Shown one piece after another: positions 5,971-55,643 of a DNA stretch of 64,000 bases; position 1 is the first letter of the stretch; each line of letters opens with the position of its first letter. Origin of the DNA: Methanoregula sp. (lineage in GTDB: Archaea > Halobacteriota > Methanomicrobia > Methanomicrobiales > Methanospirillaceae); contig JAJRCF010000005.1 in the NCBI GenBank assembly GCA_028679075.1, forward strand, positions 1 to 64,000, in the 5' to 3' direction. A program made the translations under genes and the position numbers. The notes beneath the pieces were generated by a model that worked only from the letters and a program-made list of their open reading frames with translations, was not told the origin of the DNA and ran no database searches.

Positions 5971-6612
5971 TCATGAATTATTAAATGAAGAATTTAGTGA
6001 ATTTGTGATAAACGTAATTCCTTCTGGAGTTAAACGATTTTTAGGATTAATAAAACCTTTTTTACGCATATCATCAATAAATACAGGATTATAACGTCCC
6101 ATAGTAGATTCGAATAACTTTTTTAATTTTTGTTTTGGCATACTTCGGAGTTCGTCAAGAGATTTGTTTAAATGCCATGGTGCGGAGTTGCGAAAATATT
6201 CAGACATTTTTGATATTGGAAGGGGTGAGCGTTCTTGAAATATCCAATTCATAGGATTAAATTTCCCAACAATTCCTTTTTTATGTAAATTAGAGCGCGG
6301 ATTTTCTGGAGCGTTACTAACTAATTGATTGTTTTCAAAATTTTTGTTATTTTTTTCATCTTCCATCCCCTCAATGATCGCAAGAACTTTTTTACCGGTG
6401 TCGGTTGTACGGTAATACCGGTCCCTGTTTTCAGTCGGTGTCAGGCATTCCACGAGCCCCACTTTTTCCATTGCATGGATGGTACGACTTACCGCAGCCC
6501 GGTCGACATCAATTATCTTCGCAAGTTCCGTTGTGGTGGCTGGACGAAGAAGCCCCTTGATCACTTTCCTTCTTACGCTCCCCCGTGTCACAAAACTCAC
6601 GAGATTATACAT
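5971..6612 (-). CDS. Winged-helix regulator with a second C-terminal domain
   Basis: 213 residues. Residues 1-80 are a MarR/ArsR-like winged helix: VIKGLLRPATTTELAKIIDVDRAAVSRTIHAMEKVGLVECL is the helix-turn-helix, followed by the wing (NRDRYYRTTDTGKKVLAII). Residues 85-213 are Asn/Lys-rich with a second possible helical domain (PISKMSEYFRNSAPWHLNKSLDEL) of unknown role. Base composition changes within the gene near 6355: the DNA-binding part is GC-rich and the rest AT-rich, which suggests a fusion. Regulatory targets are not evident. Confidence 0.7.
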   Translation of the reverse strand: MYNLVSFVTRGSVRRKVIKGLLRPATTTELAKIIDVDRAAVSRTIHAMEKVGLVECLTPTENRDRYYRTTDTGKKVLAIIEGMEDEKNNKNFENNQLVSNAPENPRSNLHKKGIVGKFNPMNWIFQERSPLPISKMSEYFRNSAPWHLNKSLDELRSMPKQKLKKLFESTMGRYNPVFIDDMRKKGFINPKNRLTPEGITFITNSLNSSFNNS

Positions 6613-7173
6613 TAATTGAACAAGGAATAGTATACGTATCAGGATGTTTGATAGATGTTTAACAAATTTTATCTCCTCTTTCGTCGATTATTATAGTGGT
6701 GCCTGGTGACCGTGAATCGCACAAGTGTGATACAAAAAGCCAGAGATGGCAACCCCCGGCGTTAATCACGGGTTCCGACGGCTCCGTTCGTCACACCGGA
6801 GGGACTTCGCCAGACACCATTCAGGGAATTACGGGCACGACCTAAATAACCCCGCTGCGGGCTCCGTTTGCCGACTCCGGATGAGATTAGGTGTCTCATT
6901 CGGGAAAATGCATGTCTCTTTTTTCGGGAAAATCTCAAAATGCAGTCCGTTTGGTGTGAATCATGGCAATTCGGGCCGGGATACGTGTCTCTTTAGGTCT
7001 CTTTCAGTGGCAAAAGTCAGAGGGGGGAGGGCGTTAGGACGTGGGTGAGGGGCTGGCCGGGGGAATGGGATACCGGAAATCTGCCCAGCGAGGGGTCGGT
7101 AGACCCCCGAGCGACTCCGAGCAGAGCGAGGAGGGGGAAGGAGGGGCTTGGGCTGATCGCAGTGAGAGCTGAT
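6613..7173. other. Intergenic region, mixed composition
   Basis: About 560 bases without a supported gene. It contains short repeat-like words (two GTCTC...TTCGGGAAAAT units around 6893 and 6922) and a GC-rich piece at 7060-7100 resembling part of the composite repeat (ACCGGAAATCTGCCCAGCGA). Confidence 0.45.
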
Positions 7174-7899
7174 ATGTGGATTAAGAAGTACAGGGAAGAT
7201 ATATCATACAATACTAATTTTTATTCTATAATGTATTTAATAAAAAAATTAATTGGGCAAATTACTAAATACAGATTTTCACTATTTCCAGGATTATGGT
7301 TAATCGAATTACTCATCCTCTCTTTTGTAATTCTGAAAGAACTAAATCCTTTAATTACCACAATCATTGGTCTTTTATTTTCTGTACCGATCAGCCTCTT
7401 TTGGTTAGAATATAATATACCAGTTCTTCAAATCCAGAGAGAAATTGAAGAGGTAATAATTGAACTTCCCCCTACGACAGATGCAATTATTAGATATAGG
7501 TTGGAATTGCCGACAGACCAATATGGTGAATACCCTCAAATTACTTATAAGTGCATAAGAATAATCATCGACAATATCGGAAGAAACGCCGCAAAAAAAT
7601 GTAAAGCTTATTTTGTAACTTCAAGTGGCAAAGAAAGAATTTGCTGGACAATTCCTACTGAAAAGCCAGATGCAACAATTAACGTAAATGATAATGAACG
7701 TCTAGATTTTTGTGCATTTCCCATGGAAATAAAAGACAATTATAGAATTCTTGTCCCGAATGAAAATGGGTGGGATAAACCGCGGATTACTGGGCCTTTG
7801 ATAAAATGTAAAGTACTGGTTACTTCAGAAAATGCGGAACCTGTCGAAGCAAATGTCAAAATTCATTTTGATAAAAATAACGTTGAAATCGAGGATTAG
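7174..7899 (+). CDS. Membrane-anchored protein of unknown function
   Basis: 241 residues from the ATG at 7174; a later ATG at 7231 is also possible. Two membrane segments lie near residues 36-55 (LFPGLWLIELLILSFVI) and 62-80 (LITTIIGLLFSVPISLFW). A soluble C-terminal domain of about 150 residues, rich in beta strands, follows (IIIDNIGRNAAKKCKAYFVTS). It is AT-rich compared with flanking DNA, which suggests transfer. It lies next to the AAA/DUF262 operon, but convergently and separated by repeat copy C. The family is not recognised. Confidence 0.6.
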   Translation: MWIKKYREDISYNTNFYSIMYLIKKLIGQITKYRFSLFPGLWLIELLILSFVILKELNPLITTIIGLLFSVPISLFWLEYNIPVLQIQREIEEVIIELPPTTDAIIRYRLELPTDQYGEYPQITYKCIRIIIDNIGRNAAKKCKAYFVTSSGKERICWTIPTEKPDATINVNDNERLDFCAFPMEIKDNYRILVPNENGWDKPRITGPLIKCKVLVTSENAEPVEANVKIHFDKNNVEIED

Positions 7900-7933
7900 A
7901 GAAACCCTTTCTCATTTTCATGATTGATCTAAT

Positions 7934-8025
7934 ATGATGGCTGCCGCCGCTCCCGCTGAGACGTATTCTCGGTGGGGCAATTACCGGTAGTTTACCCAAC
8001 GGGGATTCGGTGACGGGGCCGAGCG
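7934..8025 (+). repeat. Composite dispersed repeat, copy C (short)
   Basis: Begins ATGATGGCTGCCGCCGCTCCCGC and continues with the GGGGCAATTACCGGTAGTTTACCCAACGGGGATTCGG block shared with copies B and D. It lacks the hairpin modules with ATCA loops. Confidence 0.7.
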
Positions 8026-8114
8026 AGCACCAAAGGGAGGGGAAAAGAATCACAATAAAGATTTGGGCGGGGAAAAATAATCCACTATTTTTTCAATGCA
8101 TGACATACATGATA

Positions 8115-9638
8115 TCAAACAGGTTGTTTCATAAATTCTTTATAAAATTCCATAAAAAAATTCGCTGCAGGTTCTCGGTTATATTTATACCATATTTTTA
8201 CCATACTTTCCCATAATAAATTCGGATTTTCACCAAGTTTATACGCAATAGCGCTAATCCATTCATGAAAATCTAAAATCGTCATCGATGAATCAATCGC
8301 TTCAGAAATAACAGGTATTGGTTTATACAATATATCTGATAAATCCTGGAGATGGTTATGAACTTCATTAACAACAATTATTTCAGGAGGTTTACTTCCA
8401 GGAAGTTTTAGAATATGTTTTGGGAATTTTTTTCTGTGTACTCTCTCATACTCTTCAATCGAATAATCTCCATCAACTACTCCAATAAAATTTGATAAAT
8501 CTAAGGAGTTTGTTGTATCGATAAAATCAATTATTTTTGAATCGCCCTTGCAACAAATGATTTCAATCTGATGTGATAACGACGGACAATCAAATGATAT
8601 TATTGATTCTAAAAAAGATTTCCCTTTCTCGTCCTCGACACATACAATTTTTTTATTTTGGATCGTTGTCCCCAAATCATCTTTTGCAAGCCAATTCGGA
8701 CAATTGCAGATCGATTTAATGTTGGAATTTTCAAATTTGATTAAAATGAGTGAATCCCTAGATACATGATCAATAATTGTGGGTGAATGAGAGGTTAAAA
8801 TAAATTGGATATGCTCCTCATGTGCGGTTTTATGAATTAACTCAATAAGTTTTTTTTGAACGCCAGAATGAAGATAATTCTCTAATTCTTCTATGATAAC
8901 AATAGATCCAGCGTTTAAATCATTTAAGCCCCATAAAAATTGATTTACATAGAACTCTCCAGAACCCATTGAATAGGAATCGTAGATAGTTCCATCTTCC
9001 AATGTTATTCGATAATATTCTTTTAGAGTATTTTTATCAAAAACCTCATCGATCTCTTCGTCACCAGTTAGTTCGACACCCTCTTGTTCATCAAAATCTT
9101 CTAAATCACCTAAATCGATTATTCTTTCAGCAGTTTTAATTCGCTTCTCCACAAATTCTTGTAAATAGGATAATAAATGTCCAGGTAATGGTAAAGAATC
9201 AAATTGTTGTAATGTTGCGATATAAGTTAATCTATCGAATGAGGTACTATTTTTAAAAAACGAGTATAGTTTAGAATTAAAAGTAAGATCTATAACAATT
9301 GGTAACGAGAAATCATTTTTTGTAATTTTCCCATTATTGATAATAGTTTTTTTACCTTTCCGATCACTTAAACAAATTTCACTATCTTTAATAGATGACA
9401 ATATTCCATCATCGCGATCAATTTGTTGGATATGAAAAACATAATGAATTGCATTAATGCATGTTGATTTCCCCACACCATTCTTTCCGGTGATTATTAT
9501 TATTGGTGCATTTAACTCAATAGTACTATCATGCCAATTAAAAACGTTTTTCAGTGAAATTTGTTGAATAAAATATGCTTTTGAACCCCACTTTTTGCGA
9601 CATTTGTTTTGGTAATCCTCATATTCTTTAAAAATCAT
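8115..9638 (-). CDS. AAA ATPase with C-terminal TOPRIM-like domain (OLD/PARIS-like)
   Basis: 507 residues. An ABC/SMC-type AAA ATPase core: Walker A GKNGVGKST at 51-59, signature-like SMGSGEF at 223-229, Walker B SIVIIEE at 245-251, and the H-loop TSHSP at 282-286. The insertion at about 100-220 is a lid. Residues about 328-430 look like a TOPRIM or DUF4435-type nuclease domain (VCVEDE at 332-337, GVVDGDY at 386-392). This architecture matches OLD-family nucleases and fused AriAB-like (PARIS) anti-phage proteins. It is AT-rich and overlaps the upstream DUF262 gene by 11 bases, so the two are translationally coupled. A defence role is inferred. Confidence 0.8.
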   Translation of the reverse strand: MIFKEYEDYQNKCRKKWGSKAYFIQQISLKNVFNWHDSTIELNAPIIIITGKNGVGKSTCINAIHYVFHIQQIDRDDGILSSIKDSEICLSDRKGKKTIINNGKITKNDFSLPIVIDLTFNSKLYSFFKNSTSFDRLTYIATLQQFDSLPLPGHLLSYLQEFVEKRIKTAERIIDLGDLEDFDEQEGVELTGDEEIDEVFDKNTLKEYYRITLEDGTIYDSYSMGSGEFYVNQFLWGLNDLNAGSIVIIEELENYLHSGVQKKLIELIHKTAHEEHIQFILTSHSPTIIDHVSRDSLILIKFENSNIKSICNCPNWLAKDDLGTTIQNKKIVCVEDEKGKSFLESIISFDCPSLSHQIEIICCKGDSKIIDFIDTTNSLDLSNFIGVVDGDYSIEEYERVHRKKFPKHILKLPGSKPPEIIVVNEVHNHLQDLSDILYKPIPVISEAIDSSMTILDFHEWISAIAYKLGENPNLLWESMVKIWYKYNREPAANFFMEFYKEFMKQPV

Positions 9639-10701
9639 TTTTTTCCTCGAGGACTCCCGTGTTTAGGAACTTTTCATAAAATTCCATTAGGATACGATGT
9701 CGTCCTTTTAAGGAAGAAGGATCAAGCCAACCTTTGCTTAAATATGTGTTAAATTCGACATATTTTTTATTCACACGATAATTAACTTCGTCAAGATCAC
9801 TTTCATAAAACGATTTTTGCTCATTCCTCCATCTCTCAAAATTAATTAAAAATTCAGATGCATTTTTTTTATTAAAACGATCTTGTTTATTTAATTCTCT
9901 TAAAAACCAATAATAACTTAATAAGACGGATTTTGTTAATTTAAACCCGTGCATTTTATTAAAACCACTAATTGTTGATTCAACAAGATCCAAATTTCGG
10001 TCTAGGTTTTGTTGAATTCGACCATCGATTTTTTTTTCAAAATACATCTTTTCTAATATTCTGGAAGTAGGTTTGAATTCTAAAGATTCTATTTTCTCTA
10101 AAAAGAATATTTTATCCAAAGAATCTTGATATGCCATTCGTTTATTTTCAAATCCTAAAGTGCTATCACAAAATAATTTGGGGTGTGAATTAAGCATTTG
10201 TCTTAAAAATTCCTTTACAGGCCCATAGATGCAATTTCTTTTTTCAGATGCAGATACATTTACACCTTGATTTAATCTTAAAAATAATTCAGTAGCTTCA
10301 TCCATTTTTACTTCAGTAACTTTAAAAATTCGGATAGGACTCATTTCTATTTCTTTTTGAAGTCCTGAAGGAAATTCTGAAAAATGTTTTAAATGAAATT
10401 GAGAGAAATCGTCAACACCGGGTAAAAAATTCCCATTGAATGGAAACCGATCCGTTACAAAATTGTAAATTGAATAAAGTCGCTGCTTTCCATCAAGCAC
10501 TTCATACTTTTCTTTTCCTTCAACTTTAACTAGATGAATTGGTGGAATATGCCATTTTCTAATAATGGAATCTATCAATTTTTGTTGTTTTTCAATACTC
10601 CAAACCAAATCTCTTTGGAAATCAGGCTCTAAATCATAGGTTCCATCTTCAATACGATTTACAATTGATCGAATATCAGGATCAGTAACGGTAATTTTCA
10701 T
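9628..10701 (-). CDS. DUF262 (GmrS/ParB-like) protein
   Basis: 357 residues. The N-terminal DUF262 domain shows LEPDFQRDLVWSIEKQQKLIDSI (residues 24-46) and the signature LDGKQRL (69-75), the ParB/sulfiredoxin-like catalytic loop. This family includes the NTP-hydrolysing GmrS half of type IV restriction enzymes and several defence partners. The rest is helical and Lys-rich. No HNH (GmrD/DUF1524) motif is visible, so nuclease activity would have to come from the ATPase-TOPRIM partner encoded directly downstream. It is the first gene of the two-gene operon and strongly AT-rich. Confidence 0.8.
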   Translation of the reverse strand: MKITVTDPDIRSIVNRIEDGTYDLEPDFQRDLVWSIEKQQKLIDSIIRKWHIPPIHLVKVEGKEKYEVLDGKQRLYSIYNFVTDRFPFNGNFLPGVDDFSQFHLKHFSEFPSGLQKEIEMSPIRIFKVTEVKMDEATELFLRLNQGVNVSASEKRNCIYGPVKEFLRQMLNSHPKLFCDSTLGFENKRMAYQDSLDKIFFLEKIESLEFKPTSRILEKMYFEKKIDGRIQQNLDRNLDLVESTISGFNKMHGFKLTKSVLLSYYWFLRELNKQDRFNKKNASEFLINFERWRNEQKSFYESDLDEVNYRVNKKYVEFNTYLSKGWLDPSSLKGRHRILMEFYEKFLNTGVLEEKNDF

Positions 10702-10895
10702 TTGAATATCTCAATTTTTGATTATTGGTGAGACATCAATATATTTCTTACATTTTTACATTATTGAAAATTTTTTAAGATTCTTATCTAAACACAAATT
10801 TCCCTTCCTCTCCCCAAATCGAAGAACCCTTATGGATCCTTCTCTTCTTCCAGGCACACTCAAATATTTCTAACTCAGTTGACCTGTCGCAAGTC

Positions 10896-10917
10896 GAAGA
10901 ACGCTCACGCGTTCTTC
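10896..10917. repeat. GAAGAA-type palindrome (9-bp stem, TCAC loop)
   Basis: GAAGAACGC pairs perfectly with GCGTTCTTC. It is followed 10 bases later by the TGAT-loop hairpin AGGTC/GACCT at 10927-10940. Confidence 0.8.
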
Positions 10918-10971
10918 TCTTCCTCCAGGTCTGATGACCTGTCGGACCATGCTAAGCACTAGCACACACGC

Positions 10972-10979
10972 TTATATAC
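10972..10979 (+). promoter_or_regulatory. Candidate TATA box of the aromatic operon
   Basis: TTATATAC lies in otherwise GC-rich DNA, 276 bases before the first gene. It is the best TATA-like sequence upstream. The long leader it implies makes this tentative. Confidence 0.35.
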
Positions 10980-11254
10980 AACCAGCTCCAACCCAATAAG
11001 CATGCAGGAAGAGTGCCACAGCATTCGTGAGGGTTTTTTCGCCCGTGAATGTCTTTATCTCCACTAGCCAGGCCTCTCTCCGTTGCACAAAGCGCATTTC
11101 TGAATCATCGCCCGCCCACGGTACCGTCTGGTCCCGCGTCTCCGGCTTTTTTAGTTTCTTTAGCTTTTATTACCGGTTTTATTACTGGTATTGATCAAGC
11201 CCCTTGGTTTGCACAATAATTCGTGTAAATGCAGGGGCAGGTGTTGTTGTTACT

Positions 11255-12043
11255 ATGAGAGGAAAGGAAATCCGTCTGGAAAGGATCATGAACCGTAATA
11301 CGAAGAAGACCGTCATCATCCCGATGGACCACGGGGTCAGTAACGGCCCGATCCCGGGCCTGATCGATATGGGCCAGGCCGTGAACCTTGTTGCGGAAGG
11401 CGGGGCGAACGCGGTGGTCGGGCACGTGGGGCTTGCGCTCCACGGGCACCGGCAGGGCGGACGGGACGTGGGGCTGATCCTGCACCTGTCCGCAAGCACG
11501 ATGCTCGCGCCGGACCCGAACGAGAAGGTGCTCGTCAACTCGGTGACGAACGCACTCAAGATGGGCGCCGACGCGGTCTCGATGCACGTGAACATCGGGG
11601 CCGAGAGCGAGGCCCGGATGCTCGCGGACCTTGGCGCGGTCTCCGTGGAATGCATGGAATGGGGCATGCCGCTCCTCGCGATGATGTACCCGCGGGGCAA
11701 GAACATCAAGAAGGCAAACGACGTCGAACAGGTGAAGCTCGCGGCCCGGGTCGCGGCCGAGCTCGGCGCCGACATCGTCAAGACCGTGTATACCGGAGAC
11801 CCGGAGAGCTTCCGTGAGGTCACCCGGGGCTGTCCGGTACCGGTCGTGGTGGCCGGAGGTTCAAAGACCGATGACCGCACAACGCTTGAACTGATAGAGG
11901 GCGCAATGGCGGGCGGGGCGGCCGGGATCTCGATTGGCCGGAACGCCTTCCAGCACAAGAGCCCGGCAAAGTTCGTGCGGGCAGCGGCGTGTATCGTGCA
12001 TGCGAACAAGAGCGTAGAAGAAGCACTGGAAATTCTGAAGTGA
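11255..12043 (+). CDS. 2-amino-3,7-dideoxy-D-threo-hept-6-ulosonate synthase, paralog 1
   Basis: 262 residues, class I fructose-bisphosphate aldolase-like TIM barrel, as in Methanocaldococcus MJ0400. This enzyme starts the archaeal aromatic pathway by transaldol transfer onto L-aspartate semialdehyde. PMDHGVS holds the catalytic Asp, MMYPRGK the catalytic Tyr, and [14 protein letters not shown] the Schiff-base Lys. I take the ATG at 11255, since the extra N-terminal residues from 11204 are not family-like and residues [12 protein letters not shown] match the family start. It is followed 6 bases later by a close paralog. Confidence 0.85.
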
Positions 12044-48650: not shown

Positions 48651-49577
48651 TTGGTCAAAAACTCTCTTCTGAAATATTCTGTCGAACGATTACTGTATGA
48701 AGCAAATCCAGAAGGGGACACGTTTTTCGGGGCGACTGCATTCAATAAAATGATTTTTCTATTGTACAAGCGTCTTCTCACCGCCGATATTGATATAAAA
48801 TTACCCTATTACTGGTACCTTCAGGGATCATTGATTGAAGAAAATCAGTTCGAGGAGGATGTCGGCCAATCGCGGGAATTTTATATCACATCGGATCGTT
48901 CCAGCAGAAAAATGACGAGAGTCCCCAAATCCTCTGTTCCAGAGGATCTTCAACGGCAGATTGATGATCAGATTCAGAGTCTAGTTCAGAATTACCGCCA
49001 GACGAGCGGGTTCTTCAAGAAAGGTTACATTAGTCTCCTTCTTGATGACGTTTATTCCCAGGCACCGTATGAATTCCAGAGGACATTCAACCGGGGCCTG
49101 GTACCTTTTCTGGATTCCATTCATGATCCGGAACGCGTGAAAAACAAGACATCCTTTTCTTTGAACGATGCGGAAAAAGACAAAATTGAAACATTACTTG
49201 ACGATTCATTCAGGGTTTTTCCGCAATGCGATATGAGACGGATTTATGACACATACGTTGATTGGGACGATACGATCCGGATAACACTTGAATCCAGCGA
49301 GAGACAAATTTTCCCGATAACGAAAAACTTCTGGGACTTTTTCTGTCATAATCTCCGGATCCTTCAGAATGAAAACCTGCCCTCTGATCTCATCCGGCAG
49401 TGGGATTCCCGGTTTATAGAAAATGTTCTTCCAAAATACCAAGATGGTTTGGAGAAAACGAGAAAAACATTATTGCAGAGATGGAGGAAAAGCCAGAACG
49501 AAGATCGGGAAATTGAGAATGTCGTTAATAAATTAAACTTCATTTCCCGGAATAATCTGAATCAATCGGACACCTGA
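48651..49577 (+). CDS. Hypothetical protein, possibly Panacea-like antitoxin
   Basis: 308 residues from a TTG. The N-terminal 70 residues (FGATAFNKMIFLLYKRLLTADIDIKLPYYWYLQGSLIEE) recall the Panacea (DUF4065/SocA) fold, where an N-K-x-x-x-L-L-Y core is followed by a W-Y-x-x-G motif. Panacea proteins act as antitoxins to many unrelated toxins. The rest is helical and charged, with no known motif. A PIN-like gene starts 10 bases after its stop, behind GAGGCGG, so the two form an operon. The Panacea assignment is tentative. Confidence 0.55.
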   Translation: MVKNSLLKYSVERLLYEANPEGDTFFGATAFNKMIFLLYKRLLTADIDIKLPYYWYLQGSLIEENQFEEDVGQSREFYITSDRSSRKMTRVPKSSVPEDLQRQIDDQIQSLVQNYRQTSGFFKKGYISLLLDDVYSQAPYEFQRTFNRGLVPFLDSIHDPERVKNKTSFSLNDAEKDKIETLLDDSFRVFPQCDMRRIYDTYVDWDDTIRITLESSERQIFPITKNFWDFFCHNLRILQNENLPSDLIRQWDSRFIENVLPKYQDGLEKTRKTLLQRWRKSQNEDREIENVVNKLNFISRNNLNQSDT

Positions 49578-49586
49578 GGCGGAAAA

Positions 49587-50228
49587 TTGCCATTTTTCCT
49601 TGATAGTAACGTACTTATCGGATTTTATTTCTCGTGTGCCGATCAGTGGGGAAATCAGGCAAAAAAAGTTATTGAGAAAACAGGTGTAAAACACAGCAGC
49701 ACCACTGTCTGGCATGAATGTTTTGGAGATGGAGGAGCAGGGAAGTGCAGGACGATTTTTTATGAGATTAAGGATGAGTTTCGTGCGGCAATTAATCTTT
49801 TAACTAAAGAAAATTATCCTCCCACCGAACTTTTTTGCCTTGCCGTAGCGGAGAAATGGAAGACTCTGGAGATTTTCCAAGAGTTGGTGGGCAAATATCA
49901 ACACGATACAAAAGAGCTGGTCAGGAAAATCCGTAAAGCTGAATGGAAATACGAGAGCGATTGCGATACTCGTTTAGCGCAGCTGAGAAAGCCTGCAGTC
50001 CTTCAGATTCATAGCAGGGTCAATGAGTATCTCGCAACGAAAAGACATCTTGATACCATGATAGAGGATCCGTCCGATGTAGTAATTGTCCTTGATGCTC
50101 ATCATGTTGGAGGAATTATTCAAGATTTGAATTTTGTGACAGGTGATCACAATCACATCGTCCGTCATAGAGATTTTATCGTACAACACACGAATATTTC
50201 AGATGTGACTTTTCTGGATTATGTTTAG
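49587..50228 (+). CDS. PIN-domain-like nuclease
   Basis: 213 residues from a TTG with GAGGCGG just upstream. It starts FFLDSNVLIGFYF, the first acidic strand of PIN domains. DPSDVVIVLDAHHVGG holds further acidic residues, and DLNFVTGDHNHIVRHRDFI resembles the last strand with T-G-D. A long helical insertion (about 60-150) separates them. PIN proteins cut RNA. With the gene before it, this could be a toxin-antitoxin or defence pair. It is AT-rich compared with the core genes. Confidence 0.65.
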   Translation: MPFFLDSNVLIGFYFSCADQWGNQAKKVIEKTGVKHSSTTVWHECFGDGGAGKCRTIFYEIKDEFRAAINLLTKENYPPTELFCLAVAEKWKTLEIFQELVGKYQHDTKELVRKIRKAEWKYESDCDTRLAQLRKPAVLQIHSRVNEYLATKRHLDTMIEDPSDVVIVLDAHHVGGIIQDLNFVTGDHNHIVRHRDFIVQHTNISDVTFLDYV

Positions 50229-50269: not shown

Positions 50270-51070
50270 TTAATCTAATAATCCACTAATATGTGCAATG
50301 TAATTCCCTGATTTTGTTATGGAAATGAATACATTTCGTCCATCTTTTTTCCGGGAGATATACCCATGCTTTTCCAGTTTCGTGAGAACGGTCTTATCGA
50401 GCTTCATCAACTGATTACTTTGCAGAGATCTCATCCTACTTTCTTCTACTTCATCAAATAATTCCTGAAATCCCGGGACATTTTCTTCCTTTAAAAATCC
50501 CAAAATATCCCTCATCTTTTTTGGTTTTCCCCCCTTGCTTAAGAGAAGTAAAATTTTCATTCCGATTTCTTCAGGCATCTTGATCTCAAAATTTTCCAGT
50601 ATGTCCGATTTTTTCAAGTTACAAATACTCAGTCCATGTTTACGACGAGATGATTTATTCGTGGGATATTCATCTGCATGAACGTAATACACATTTGCCT
50701 TATGAGCCATTCCAGCCAGTGTTGCTGCAACGGAGGTAAGCCGTCCTGCGGCAGACATATTAACAAAAACCCGATTATGCAGAGCCGTTTCTTTGACAAT
50801 AATTTGGGAGACGGTTTTCATCACATCGAGGAGATCAAAAAGATTTACATCAAGAATCTTCGTGACCTCAATTTTTTTCCGTTGTAAAATTTTCTCTACT
50901 TTTTCTAAACATATCTTCTGATTTTTGAACATTTCATCATCTGATCGTTCAATTTCCAAGTTTGTAAGTAGATAAACGCGGTCTGCTTTAAGGCTTTCAA
51001 AGGGTTTCACAGCCCGATCTATCTCATGACCTAAAGGAATTATATGGACGGTCTCTTCGATATTTGGCAT
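50270..51070 (-). CDS. CARF-like domain with C-terminal winged helix (HFX_2341/DUF6293 type)
   Basis: 266 residues. The N-terminal domain (about 5-150) is Rossmann-like: VHIIPLGHEIDRAVKPFESLKADRVYLLTN, then HNRVFVNMSAAGRLTSVAATLAG, which matches the ligand loop of CARF/DUF6293 regulators. The C-terminal part (about 170-266) is a winged helix (EIGMKILLLLSKGGKPKKMRDILGFL and LDKTVLTKLEKHGYISRKKDGRNVFISIT). CARF domains bind cyclic oligoadenylate in type III CRISPR signalling, but no CRISPR array or cas gene is visible here. It is convergent with the PIN-like gene. Confidence 0.78.
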   Translation of the reverse strand: MPNIEETVHIIPLGHEIDRAVKPFESLKADRVYLLTNLEIERSDDEMFKNQKICLEKVEKILQRKKIEVTKILDVNLFDLLDVMKTVSQIIVKETALHNRVFVNMSAAGRLTSVAATLAGMAHKANVYYVHADEYPTNKSSRRKHGLSICNLKKSDILENFEIKMPEEIGMKILLLLSKGGKPKKMRDILGFLKEENVPGFQELFDEVEESRMRSLQSNQLMKLDKTVLTKLEKHGYISRKKDGRNVFISITKSGNYIAHISGLLD

Positions 51071-52279: not shown

Positions 52280-53350
52280 ATGGCAAAAAAACCCAATCGG
52301 GATGAACCCCAGAATTTCTATTTTCAGTGGCACATCACCAATAAATGCAATCTCCGGTGCAGTCATTGTTACCAGGAAAGTTATACCGATCAAATCGATC
52401 TCTCCATTGATGAACTCAAAGCAATCGCCGACAAGATTTTTGTAACGATGGCGAAGTGGAACAAAAAAGGTGATATTTCCATTACCGGCGGAGAACCTTT
52501 TATTAAAAAAGAATTGTTCCCGCTCATGACCTATCTTGATAGCTCCGATAATATTTCCCGTCTTGATGTTCTCTGCAATGGTATTTTTATCACCGACAAA
52601 ATCGCACAGGACCTGAAAAAAATCCGGAAACTGAACAATGTTCAGGTGTCCCTTGATGGCGCTACATCAATGATCCACGACCAGATCCGCGGAACCGGTA
52701 CCTTTGAAAAAGCAATGAAAGGAATCCGGACGCTGGTGAATCATGGAATTGATGTCAAGGTCATGTTCACGTTGCAACAGTTGAATAAAGAGGAGATTCC
52801 CGATCTCATTGCTCTGGCAATCCGGGAAAATATCAGCGGTCTTACCATTGAGCGAATGGTCCCGACAGGTTCGGGAAGAGATAAAAAAGATGCCATCTTA
52901 AGTCCGCGGGAGCTCGAATACACATTTCAGTATATCTCTGACCGTGCCGATCTCGAGTACCAAAAAGGCCATGACCTACGCATCCTGAAGTACCGGCCGT
53001 TATGGATCAACCTGGACCCCTGTCGGGCAAACGCAGATTCCGGAATTGGCCCCCATGAAGAACTCGGCGCAATCTGTTCGATCGGGTACGACGGCCTGTG
53101 TATCATGCCGGACGCTTCCGTGCTTGCCTGCCGCAGACTGCCGATCACCATCGGGAACCTGAAAACGGACAGCATAGAAAAGATCTGGTTCGAGTCCGAA
53201 CTGCTCTGCCAGATCCGGGACAAGCGGAACCTGAAAGGCAAGTGCAAATCCTGCGAGCACATCCCGCGTTGTAGCGGCTGCCGGTCCATGGCCTATGCAG
53301 TCACCGGCGATTACCTTGCGGAAGATCCGCAATGCTGGAAATCGGAATAA
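52280..53350 (+). CDS. Radical SAM/SPASM enzyme, probably peptide-modifying
   Basis: 356 residues. Radical SAM motif CNLRCSHC with Cys 23, 27 and 30; SISITGGEPF-type SAM-binding segment (DISITGGEPFIKK). The C-terminal SPASM region has many Cys: CRANADSG, CSIGYDG, CRRLP, then CKSCEHIPRCSGCRS and a last Cys in DPQCW. They would bind two auxiliary Fe-S clusters. The layout fits enzymes that modify ribosomal peptides (SPASM family, such as those for mycofactocin, thioether or quinohemoprotein peptides). A 54-residue Cys-tailed peptide is encoded 30 bases downstream. It is moderately GC-rich, unlike the AT-rich gene after the peptide. Confidence 0.9.
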   Translation: MAKKPNRDEPQNFYFQWHITNKCNLRCSHCYQESYTDQIDLSIDELKAIADKIFVTMAKWNKKGDISITGGEPFIKKELFPLMTYLDSSDNISRLDVLCNGIFITDKIAQDLKKIRKLNNVQVSLDGATSMIHDQIRGTGTFEKAMKGIRTLVNHGIDVKVMFTLQQLNKEEIPDLIALAIRENISGLTIERMVPTGSGRDKKDAILSPRELEYTFQYISDRADLEYQKGHDLRILKYRPLWINLDPCRANADSGIGPHEELGAICSIGYDGLCIMPDASVLACRRLPITIGNLKTDSIEKIWFESELLCQIRDKRNLKGKCKSCEHIPRCSGCRSMAYAVTGDYLAEDPQCWKSE

Positions 53351-53380
53351 TTATCATGTGACGGAATTCAAGTGGTTATT

Positions 53381-53545
53381 ATGGAATTAGTTGATGTAAC
53401 ACAATCCTCAACACCCATTTTCCGTGACCGGGCAATGCTTTCTTCCGAGCAGCTTAGTGATCCTGATTATGCATTAAAAGAACTGGAAATTCTCAACAAC
53501 GGAAAATACTCGATCACGTGCAGCAAGTGTCACCACTGCAGATAG
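53381..53545 (+). CDS. Candidate RiPP precursor peptide (54 aa, Cys-rich C-terminus)
   Basis: Encodes a polar leader-like N-terminal part (about residues 1-44, with helical SSEQLSDPDYALKELEILNN) and a short core-like end GKYSITCSKCHHCR, with three Cys in a C-x2-C-x2-C pattern and two His. It lies between the radical SAM/SPASM gene (30 bases) and the HD gene (13 bases), same strand. Length, leader/core layout and context fit a substrate of the SPASM enzyme. A metal-binding micro-protein is the alternative. There is no strong ribosome site, so translation may be coupled. Confidence 0.7.
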   Translation: MELVDVTQSSTPIFRDRAMLSSEQLSDPDYALKELEILNNGKYSITCSKCHHCR

Positions 53546-53558
53546 TTTTTTTGAAATA

Positions 53559-55643
53559 ATGGAACCTAAAATTGTTAGTCATACTCAAATAGTGAGGCAA
53601 TTAGAGACATATCTTCTATCCAAGCAATACACATTATATCACTATTTAGAGGAAACTCCCGAGTTTATAGAAAATAACAAAGAAACACGTGAATTATTTT
53701 TATTCAATTGGGATGATGTTGTCGGGGACCAACGAGTATGGCTCGAAAATTATTTTGTTGATAAATTTCAGGTACATTGGGTACGAAATTCAATTATTAC
53801 AAAAAATGATGAATTGATTAAAATAAAAGATAAGGCCTCATCAAATCACATTCTTTTAAAAAAAGAAGGAAATAAAATCACATTTGAAATTAATGGAAAA
53901 AAGATCACTCTTCATACAAAGATCGATGAAGAAAAATTAATTGTATATGAAAAAATTGAACGGTCAATTATCGATCCAAATCTACCTGTTGACTTGATTT
54001 CATCAAAAATTGACAAAGGGGTTACTTATTATATCGTTTATTTGATTGTTTCAACAGATTTTTCGAAAGACTATTCCAAAGTTGAGTTAGAAAAAAGAGT
54101 GAAGTATTATCGATATTATCTTTCCAGAATAAAAACTCTAAAAGATTTGAAAATAATCCTTGTTATGCCTAAATCTATTGACTTAAATTCAAAATTTTTT
54201 AAAGAGACTGGAATTGGTCAATGGATCTATTTAGGTGATGGAACAATTCAAGAAAAAATTGAAACGTTCAGTATCACTGAACAAATGCAACATGAATATC
54301 GAGATGATATTGCAAAAATAAAAAAAGGCGAAACACCCGATTTCTTCAGCAAATTTGTATATGATTCGGTAAATGCAATTGCTGGGCTAAATCCAGATCA
54401 ATTTGGAAAAAGTTCTATCGATAGAAAGTTATTAGATCAAATTTTTGATTTGAACACGATTTCTTATCGTGATGAATTATTTGAATATATTAATGAACAT
54501 CTCACTGAAAAAGGAGATGAATATGTTTTCACAAGTGAGATTTTCTCTTCGTTGTGGAAAAAAGAATTGGGCCCATCGTATTCCGATTTTTTAGAAGTGT
54601 TTGAACCTTCATTACAATATATTTCTGCATCTAACCTAAAACGTGGAGGCCGTATTTATCGAGACCATTATATTCACCAATTCCAAGTTTTTTTGTTAGG
54701 ACTTCCCATAATCGATAAAAAATATAATCTTTTTAAAGAACGATATAAGCAACCTGAATTAGTCTGGCTTGTCGCTGCATCTTTTCATGATAATGCATAC
54801 CCCGTTCAATTATACGACAAATGGAGCGGAGAATTCTTTAAACGAGTTTTTAACATTCAAAAAGAGATCGGAACCATAGAATTAAAATCAAAATTTATAG
54901 ATGAAGACTTCTTAAGTTGCCTTGGGTATCTAATTTGCTCGTTTTGCAAAACACACCCTCCACAAAGAACACTTGAAAATAATTGGCTGGCTTCGGAAAG
55001 TGAGTTAATCCAGTTTATTCATAGGATGATTACTGAAGAAAAAAATCATGGGGTTTTGAGTTGTGTGTCATTATTAAAAATGCTCACTTCAATTCCCAAA
55101 GAAACTGACGATAGTACCGGAAATAATCAAATAAAAAAAGAACCAAGCAATAGAGAGAAAGTTACCGAAATTCATCATGATTTTGAATCTGCATTAAACG
55201 AAATATTTGTTCCTGGTGCTTTAGCTATTGCTCTTCATGACGAAAAAGTATGGGATGCGGAAATTAAAGGAAAACAACCTGATGAAAAAGAAAAATTCTT
55301 AACGAAACTGTGTTTTGATGATGATCCAATTTCATTTTTATTAATATTCTGTGATTGCGTCCAAGAATGGGGACGCCCCTCGAAATCACAGGATCTTGAT
55401 GAAAATCAGAAAGAAAAGAAATTTTATTTAAAAACAATTGATATCAACGAAGAATTTGTGAAAATTACATTATGGGCACCATATCATTCAAAAACTGAGG
55501 ATTTTTTCTTGAAAAAACAAGAGGAATTGAAAAAGATTCAAAGATTTTTATGTCAAGGTGATTCGTATAAATTTATTATTCGCATTGAAGATAAAAAACT
55601 AAAAGGTGAGGAGTATGAAATGGAAGGGCCTCCCACTACTTAA
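53559..55643 (+). CDS. Large AT-rich protein with HD-superfamily domain
   Basis: 694 residues. The N-terminal half (1-330) shows no motif. Residues about 360-640 carry HD-type metal ligands in order: GRIYRDHYIHQFQVFLLG, AASFHDNAYPVQLYD (His-Asp pair), VPGALAIALHDEKVW, and FLLIFCDCVQEWGRP. The order H...HD...H...D is that of HD phosphohydrolases, which act on nucleotides, cyclic dinucleotides or nucleic acid. The substrate is unknown. Codon use is strongly AT-rich, so it was probably acquired. It follows the candidate peptide gene with no promoter that I can see, so it may belong to that operon. Confidence 0.65.
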   Translation: MEPKIVSHTQIVRQLETYLLSKQYTLYHYLEETPEFIENNKETRELFLFNWDDVVGDQRVWLENYFVDKFQVHWVRNSIITKNDELIKIKDKASSNHILLKKEGNKITFEINGKKITLHTKIDEEKLIVYEKIERSIIDPNLPVDLISSKIDKGVTYYIVYLIVSTDFSKDYSKVELEKRVKYYRYYLSRIKTLKDLKIILVMPKSIDLNSKFFKETGIGQWIYLGDGTIQEKIETFSITEQMQHEYRDDIAKIKKGETPDFFSKFVYDSVNAIAGLNPDQFGKSSIDRKLLDQIFDLNTISYRDELFEYINEHLTEKGDEYVFTSEIFSSLWKKELGPSYSDFLEVFEPSLQYISASNLKRGGRIYRDHYIHQFQVFLLGLPIIDKKYNLFKERYKQPELVWLVAASFHDNAYPVQLYDKWSGEFFKRVFNIQKEIGTIELKSKFIDEDFLSCLGYLICSFCKTHPPQRTLENNWLASESELIQFIHRMITEEKNHGVLSCVSLLKMLTSIPKETDDSTGNNQIKKEPSNREKVTEIHHDFESALNEIFVPGALAIALHDEKVWDAEIKGKQPDEKEKFLTKLCFDDDPISFLLIFCDCVQEWGRPSKSQDLDENQKEKKFYLKTIDINEEFVKITLWAPYHSKTEDFFLKKQEELKKIQRFLCQGDSYKFIIRIEDKKLKGEEYEMEGPPTT

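Follow-up and report, generated by a model that had tools for sequence, protein, structure and literature searches.

A radical SAM/SPASM enzyme and a Cys-tailed peptide from Methanoregula as a probable reduced member of a cross-domain RiPP family

Introduction

The logic by which SPASM enzymes serve RiPP systems is known. SkfB, StsB and PapB act on Cys-containing cores, and a PqqD gene between the enzyme and the peptide is an arrangement familiar from peptide-modifying radical SAM systems. The PQQ and mycofactocin gene sets combine such an enzyme with PqqD, a peptide, and an MBL protein or a glycosyltransferase. Here we analysed a 64,000-nucleotide stretch of a Methanoregula sp. contig (JAJRCF010000005.1, hereafter the window), in which a radical SAM/SPASM enzyme is encoded next to a small peptide ending in a Cys-rich tail. 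We estimate a probability of about three in four that the two are a cognate pair, that the core is modified in the family, and that the window holds a reduced member of it. For the core motif and the set of partner genes described below, we found no published description in a literature search that covered titles and abstract openings, mostly without subscription journals and bioRxiv.

Results

The enzyme and the peptide of the window

The original prediction of a 356-residue enzyme with CxxxCxxC and a Cys-rich SPASM region proved exact in coordinates and motifs (Table 1). The frame is unbroken, and Pfam identified the Radical_SAM (PF04055, 2.7e-23) and SPASM (PF13186, 3e-7) domains. The enzyme is 41-51% identical to the eight homologues in alignment A2, and all nine aligned enzymes keep C23-x3-C27-x2-C30 as well as C266, C284, C322, C325, C331, C334 and C352, so that the window enzyme has both the CxxxCxxC motif and the seven-Cys region of the SPASM subfamily. 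No NCBIfam family model cleared its cut-off for this enzyme. The top model was AhbD (TIGR04545, 188.6 bits, E=1.9e-55; cut-off 500), followed by the ACGX maturase (TIGR04340, 182.9 bits; cut-off 400), which gave the best E-value across the nine homologues. The models for PqqE (86 against a cut-off of 381.35 bits), the mycofactocin maturase (123.6 against 265) and StsB (NF045574, 86.1 against 625) scored lower. The best solved-structure match of the enzyme profile was SkfB (6efn, 1.3e-26), which we take to be a sactipeptide maturase. The GC content of the enzyme gene climbs from its 5' end (about 0.4) to its 3' end (0.53-0.57) and is 0.31 in the following HD gene; a mosaic origin of the enzyme gene is possible from this gradient.

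Table 1. Positions of the features in the window
Feature	Position	Strand	Basis
Low-GC island holding the cassette	48651..55643		genes 31-48% GC vs 54% to the left and 56% to the right
CARF-type winged-helix regulator (HFX_2341/DUF6293)	50270..51070	-	PF19810 1.1e-36, PF22665 1.9e-22, PADLOC CARF3 8.3e-103
Radical SAM/SPASM enzyme, putative peptide maturase, 356 aa	52280..53350	+	PF04055, PF13186, alignment A2
Precursor peptide (candidate), 54 aa	53381..53545	+	aligned with 12 other peptides behind the enzyme; leave-out HMM test
C-terminal core TCSKCHHCR	53516..53542	+	alignments with the relatives' CxQCSxCHGC[RK]
694-aa HD-type protein, putative metal-dependent phosphohydrolase	53559..55643	+	L073 homologue, motifs

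The peptide likewise agrees with what had been read from the sequence, a 54-residue frame that starts thirty bases past the enzyme stop and ends in TCSKCHHCR; an alternative GTG start three codons 5' of its ATG would give 57 residues. Compared with the relatives' CxQCSxCHGC[RK], the window core has Ser at the first Cys position and retains three of the four core Cys, and an alignment of 13 peptides places an eight-residue insertion inside its leader. NCBIfam and Pfam searches at E up to 1 returned no match for the peptide. We then built a peptide HMM from the 12 other peptides, leaving out that of the window, and ran it on the 957 window ORFs of at least 20 residues. The window peptide ranked first (E=0.0069, 12.4 bits; next ORF 0.082). 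The 12 other peptides scored between 5.6e-14 and 8e-25, each ranking above all other ORFs of its locus, and the window peptide had by far the lowest score of the 13. Because its leave-out E-value is just 0.0069, the window peptide is credible mainly from its position and motif.

Conservation of the enzyme-peptide pair

A scan of GTDB contigs returned 20 loci with an enzyme homologue. Ten of them, at 37-51% enzyme identity, all have a frame of 43-59 residues behind the enzyme, with a common leader and a Cys-rich end. They represent nine distinct loci, as L013 and L014, from two MAGs, have identical ORFs at identical places and were counted as one. Whole-genome searches added members in genomes G279 and G1610, and an IMG/VR contig (L087) contributed another. 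Without the window, there are thus 12 distinct close loci, and the peptide family lies downstream of the enzyme in all 12, where close means at least 400 bits against profile A2, a cut chosen after the peptides were known (L087 scores 400.8 bits and the top peptide-less enzyme 367.8). The record titles of the peptide-bearing loci name Thermoplasmatota, Desulfobacterales, Deltaproteobacteria, Anaerovorax/Syntrophomonas, Firmicutes, Bacteroidales, Hydrogenedens and Aminicenantes. What appears to be one contig with the L013/L014 operon is binned in MAGs named Anaerovorax and Syntrophomonas, and the host of that operon is uncertain for this reason.

Most relatives share the leader consensus Y.KP.[FL]...M.FP.EI, and the cores fall into two types. 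CxQCSxCHGC[RK] occurs in seven peptides, with the CHGC[RK]-type core in the starred enzyme clade L015, L011, L012, L016 and L076 plus L009/L010, whereas CFGC[ST]NC[NS]C occurs in five, its CFGC[ST]NC-type core belonging to the starred clade L017, L087, L018, L013 and L077. At the level of sequence, the comparison shows that the core type tracks the enzyme clade. In 13 of 13 peptides, the residue after the second aligned core Cys is Ser or Thr.

Away from the close loci, the peptide was found in none of 25 more distant enzyme loci (L019-L028, L049-L063). In L019-L028, at 25-30% enzyme identity, no peptide-HMM match fell below E=0.015, the value of a 35-residue Cys-containing frame (L027, 7564-7671) that lies about 530 bases behind a 25%-identity enzyme and is the top match outside the family. 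The 15 ring-2 loci (L049-L063) gave nothing under E=0.18, including L050 with just 126 bases downstream, and were rejected as peptide carriers since all matches were at or above 0.18; in nine inspected ring-2 loci, no alternative peptide was seen by eye and no PqqD by profile. Among 395 sampled genomes of the phylum of G233, 17 encode the enzyme at E up to 1e-85, of which two have the peptide (G233, which is L011, and G279) and 15 have none. On the enzyme tree, the peptide label needs two changes (one change in 16% of 200 bootstrap trees), and none of 500 label shuffles was as low as the observed two. In this tree the peptide-bearing rows do not resolve as one clade, and a 14-row ring-2 clade lacking the peptide lies among them.

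The check proposed together with the original prediction, namely whether leader and core are jointly conserved near homologues of the enzyme, thus gave a positive answer in all 12 other close loci. A short precursor gene is paired with a modifying enzyme in each of these loci, and the peptide alignments, including that of 13 peptides, have a leader/core layout with a conserved core. From these comparisons, we regard it as highly probable that enzyme and peptide are cognate, and a RiPP-type pair is a very likely description of them.

A larger operon in the relatives

We derived the operon layout from wider stretches of eight relatives (L072-L074, L076-L080) together with L017 and L087; L073 equals L009, L072 equals L010 and L080 equals L013/L014. 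The gene set recurs across the relatives in varying order. Every one of the 12 other close loci has a PqqD-like frame that separates the enzyme from the peptide, as judged by Pfam in the two scanned (L009, L077), by BLAST homology in eight including those two, by profile in L087 (2.7e-26), and by position and motif by eye in L015, L016 and L076. All 10 loci that extend far enough encode a protein we call the toroid (L012 and L018 end at a contig edge).

Six type 1 operons are long enough for comparison (L072, L073, L074, L076, L078, L079). They have enzyme, PqqD and peptide, and all six encode the toroid (268-294 aa) and AsnB, which has about 270 residues in L072, L073 and L079 and 568-624 in L074, L076 and L078 (assigned by Pfam in L074 and in L009, which is the L073 operon, and by BLAST elsewhere). 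Five of the six encode an MBL protein of 951-1197 residues with HxHxDH in every case (Pfam via L010, L011 and L015 for L072, L074 and L078; BLAST for L076, where the gene is on the opposite strand, and L079); the sixth, L073, has an HD-type protein instead. A glycosyltransferase is also encoded in five of six, as assigned by Pfam in L072 and L074 and by BLAST in L073 (split), L076 and L079; none was seen in L078. Type 2 operons (L077, L080, L017, L087) have enzyme, PqqD and peptide as well as an amidohydrolase-like protein (Pfam in L017, with GNAT; BLAST in L077 and L080; by eye in L087). Two of the four have an AsnRS-like enzyme (Pfam in L080; NCBIfam in L087, 143 of 414 bits), L077 has a methyltransferase at that position, and L017 has neither. 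The toroid and a B12-binding-type radical SAM enzyme complete type 2 (Pfam/NCBIfam in L077; BLAST in L080 and L017; by eye, and split, in L087). The AsnRS-like enzyme of the two type 2 loci and the AsnB of type 1 may replace one another.

The AlphaFold model of the L073 toroid has a mean pLDDT of 90.1 and matches class II terpene cyclases best (top E 4.4e-8; TMq 0.64-0.70 among the first 14 rows). Drimenyl-PP synthase and squalene-hopene cyclase share the toroid fold, but the top matches are just 16-17% identical. Class II terpene cyclases usually carry the acid motif DxDD, whereas the corresponding site reads VEDT or VEET in type 1 and is further divergent in type 2. Complement-type thioester domains also match the model. 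That the toroid is a terpene cyclase agrees with its predicted fold, but the acid motif is not kept.

The HD gene of the window

The original prediction that the following HD-domain gene might share the operon is borne out by the L073 operon, which holds a homologue of 604 residues (26% identity over 517 aa, E=1e-35), and it is this homologue that ties the third gene of the window to the system. The window gene starts 13 bases past the peptide stop and encodes the motifs HYIHQF at 370, FHD at 409, NHG at 496, DDD at 587 and FCD at 597. The H, HD, NHG and D motifs are common to the window and L073 proteins, and L086 also shares the H...HD...D motifs. Pfam gave no match for the 694-residue protein, a PDB sequence search found nothing at E up to 10, and an AlphaFold model from a two-sequence alignment was unusable (mean pLDDT 33.3). 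Across 49 genomes, its own and those of relatives, we found only the protein itself and one weak match in a same-genus genome (E=1.3e-4, residues 368-612), an HD-type protein with 24% identity over 261 aa.

One Thermoplasmatota MAG carries two type 1 operons, L010/L072 and L009/L073. In the former, the MBL gene is directly behind the peptide; in the latter, the HD homologue lies between AsnB and the glycosyltransferase, the same place as the MBL gene in L079. In the window, the HD gene comes right after the peptide, like the MBL gene in L072 and L078, and HD and MBL genes occurred together in none of the operons examined. The L073 operon, a single relative, suggests that the two hydrolases are alternatives in the operon.

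A reduced cassette on a low-GC island

The three frames of the window cassette are intact. No homologue of PqqD, toroid, AsnB, glycosyltransferase or MBL was found on the 115-kb contig (the 64-kb window plus 51 kb), and the PqqD-type RRE that all 12 relatives have is absent beside the window pair. We searched the whole genome of the window for PqqD (PF05402) and with the peptide profile, and contig C5 for the toroid, AsnB and glycosyltransferase. At E up to 1, the PqqD genes of the genome lie on another contig near two other radical SAM genes. That locus (L081, G000:C1:26000-44000) has two radical SAM and two PqqD-type genes at about 8304-11335 on the minus strand (PF05402, 54.6 and 37.5 bits); one enzyme match there contains TGA, and a search with the peptide profile yielded no family member at this locus.

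The cassette lies within a 7-kb island in which the enzyme gene has 48% and the HD gene 31% GC, compared with 54-56% in the flanks. Given the missing partners, the altered peptide, the low GC and the rarity in the order, the cassette was probably acquired horizontally and is probably a reduced or decaying member; it may also act differently. A divergent CARF regulator, 1.2 kb upstream of the enzyme, is a possible controller of the cassette, of which its membership is uncertain. At the left end of the island (48651-50228), a 308-residue frame stands in tandem with a 213-residue frame that resembles a PIN-type nuclease by eye; neither has a significant Pfam or any PADLOC match, and by eye they are possibly a toxin-antitoxin pair. 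A tblastn match of the L017 amidohydrolase at 48843-49091 (E=0.008) was judged to be chance. The window has a second low-GC patch at 5971-10701 (30-38%), with genes of 507 and 357 residues at 8115-10701 on the minus strand.

Distribution and defence neighbourhood

The enzyme family is rare and patchy. The expectation that Methanomicrobiales carry families of this kind was not supported: at E up to 1e-45, the enzyme occurs in one of 232 genomes of the order, that of the window itself. At E up to 1e-112, with seeds counted, it was found in 1/243 genomes for the phylum of G232, 1/68 for G239, 1/247 for G240, 1/375 for the phylum of G238 and 3/378 for the phylum of G237, these sets being samples of larger groups except that of G239.

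A 133-kb IMG/VR contig (L087), found via the toroid scan and listed as viral in IMG/VR, carries a type 2 operon with the toroid, AsnRS-like enzyme, amidohydrolase-like protein, PqqD, peptide, enzyme and a split radical SAM gene, adjoining a spike-like gene. Divergent from it (L088, 3937-5703, minus strand) is a gene for a 588-residue protein that by eye reads as CARF plus AAA and RtcR-like; a CARF-type gene thus accompanies both the window cassette and this operon, in two cases only. Neither the enzyme alignment A2 nor the HD alignment A4 turned up a relative in scans of viral contigs, and such scans do miss members, because the A2 patterns overlooked this very contig. A rescan with A5 returned seven loci, the L087 contig and six enzymes at 20-25% identity. 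The window enzyme had no match at 1e-20 among named phages and three matches at 27-30% among named plasmids. Named plasmids yielded no match to the HD protein, the L079 toroid or, at 1e-40, the L087 enzyme; named phages and plasmids yielded none to the L087 toroid, and named phages none to the L087 spike-like protein.

In 7 of 12 relatives, the seven whose flanks the PADLOC scan covered, defence-type genes lie no more than about 10 kb from the operon. L080 (L013/L014) has bSEFIR directly upstream, then AbiGi, BrxL and PglZ, with GajA and GajB downstream; L078 has a PLD helicase, a DUF1156 methylase and DUF499; L072 has HmaC and HmaB; L074 has a DrmD-like helicase and a second helicase-like match; and L076, L079 and L073 have SIR2, a type I specificity subunit and an AriA/OLD-like ATPase, respectively. 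Of four proteins scanned in the window flanks, only the CARF regulator matched. The flanking proteins were chosen by eye (20 scanned, 16 with a match, at limits of 1e-10 and 1e-3), and a control of ten proteins from three ring-2 loci gave one match, to RT-Protease models over a protease-like part. With proteins picked by eye and a small control, the defence neighbours are a strong hint and not a statistic. The operon members scanned fit no PADLOC defence model of their own, the scan having covered members other than AsnB, glycosyltransferase and the AsnRS-like enzyme. PADLOC 2.0.0 matched the window enzyme only to pVip (2.4e-20, residues 16-176) and the L010 MBL protein weakly (best E=0.0035), and gave no match for the window HD protein, the L011 MBL protein, the L009 toroid and PqqD, the L017 amidohydrolase or the L013 493-residue protein. 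Plasmid NZ_CP030128.1 (L045) is annotated with three radical SAM genes and one PqqD gene beside toll-interleukin receptor, TIR-domain and SIR2-family genes, and may encode a further radical SAM peptide system in a defence context. The neighbourhood alone gives no function, because other RiPP clusters have also been tied to defence genes: lanthipeptide clusters reportedly lie close to phage-defence genes (PMC12715929), and co-expression with defence families is reported for ocean RiPP families (PMC11118758).

Discussion

The conservation of the pair, together with the larger set of tailoring-type genes, bears out the original prediction of a RiPP system, which is very probably correct as to the family. 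RiPP-type modification of the core is probable on the sequence comparisons. We propose that the enzyme would act on the leader-bound peptide, in the relatives via the PqqD-type RRE and in the window either by leader recognition without an RRE or with an RRE supplied in trans. Radical chemistry would then link core cysteines to neighbouring residues. A thioether is our first guess, because SkfB is the top solved match and Ser or Thr follows the second core Cys throughout; other SPASM chemistry is possible, and the odds of the thioether type are a little short of even. In the relatives, the toroid and an aspartate-activating enzyme (AsnB, or the AsnRS-like enzyme in two of four type 2 loci) would tailor the product, with further tailoring by the glycosyltransferase or the B12-type radical SAM enzyme, and the MBL or HD hydrolase would partner the product as effector or for immunity. 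The window would retain only the maturase, the peptide and the HD hydrolase. We suggest a role in microbial or viral conflict tentatively. The fully elaborated version, an immune or conflict system in which a Cys-tailed peptide, crosslinked by the SPASM enzyme and decorated by the toroid, the aspartate-activating enzyme and the glycosyltransferase, works with interchangeable metal phosphohydrolases (MBL with HxHxDH, or HD) that target nucleic acid or nucleotides, under CARF-type regulators sensing a nucleotide alarm signal, and moves with defence islands and at least once on a virus, is unlikely as a whole.

Several other explanations have to be weighed against a cognate pair with a modified core. 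The enzyme could be an AhbD- or NirJ-like heme-pathway enzyme working on a porphyrin, with the peptide beside it by accident, as the leading rank of AhbD among the NCBIfam models might suggest; however, that score is far below its cut-off, the ACGX model is nearly equal, and a peptide lies beside 12 of 12 other close enzymes, which makes a heme enzyme highly improbable. It is less implausible, yet still improbable, that the peptide is a small metal-binding protein that carries or delivers a metal and that the enzyme leaves covalently unchanged. The C-x2-C-x2-C-x2-C and His of the type 1 core look like a metal site and the adjoining hydrolases resemble metal enzymes, but the PqqD-type frame that all 12 relatives have between the enzyme and peptide genes and the several tailoring-type genes downstream favour a peptide substrate. 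Slightly better placed, if still rather improbable, is the proposal that the relatives do not make an effector peptide but, as the PQQ and mycofactocin systems do, release from the modified core a small metabolite that is cofactor-like or carrier-derived. It draws on the composition of those gene sets and on the possible exchange of AsnB for the AsnRS-like enzyme, and it is opposed by PqqE and mycofactocin scores well under their cut-offs and by a patchy spread, often near defence genes, unlike that of a housekeeping cofactor.

The explanation that concerns the window itself is that its cassette is a remnant, in which the enzyme and the HD gene are kept for other reasons while the peptide drifts. 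The RRE and tailoring genes are missing from the contig, the peptide has three of four core Cys and a weak HMM score, and the enzyme is confined to one of 232 genomes of the order, all of which would fit a remnant. The three intact frames with tight spacing (30 and 13 bases) and the retention of every conserved enzyme Cys speak against it, and we consider it unlikely, although it stands highest among these alternatives. A reduced member of a family of cognate, core-modifying pairs is the reading that we prefer.

The comparison gives an orphan archaeal pair a place in a defined family that spans domains, with a characteristic core motif and a recurring operon, and the natural swaps of MBL for HD and of AsnB for the AsnRS-like enzyme open its chemistry to tests. 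Should the product be a conflict peptide, defence islands would gain a RiPP of both archaea and bacteria; otherwise, the toroid and the aspartate-activating partners would still indicate an unusual tailoring chemistry, which to our knowledge has no counterpart in other radical SAM RiPPs.

Among described systems, we know of no peptide partner for AhbD heme b synthase (TIGR04545), whose model gave the highest single NCBIfam score without reaching its cut-off. Its substrate is reported to be a porphyrin (PMC10452713), unlike the peptide proposed here. The ACGX system, with the maturase AcgM (TIGR04340) and an ACGX-repeat peptide, similarly places a SPASM enzyme of comparable length beside a small Cys-containing peptide. 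However, the window enzyme scores under half of that cut-off, the present family has no ACGX repeats, and in the one annotated case examined (L046) the peptide lies upstream and toroid, AsnB and hydrolase are not named. The sactipeptide and ranthipeptide maturases SkfB, StsB and PapB have the SPASM fold in common with the window enzyme, and SkfB is the top solved match, but the StsB model is far below its cut-off, a thioether is here a conjecture, and we know of no toroid or AsnB/AsnRS-like partners for these maturases. The PQQ and mycofactocin systems (PqqA/D/E; MftA/B/C/F) resemble the present family in having a peptide, a PqqD-type partner and a SPASM enzyme, and the relatives likewise have an MBL protein or a glycosyltransferase. 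They differ in that their models score far under the cut-off, that the MBL proteins here, at about 950-1200 residues, are unlike PqqB in size, and that the core of the present family is rich in Cys.
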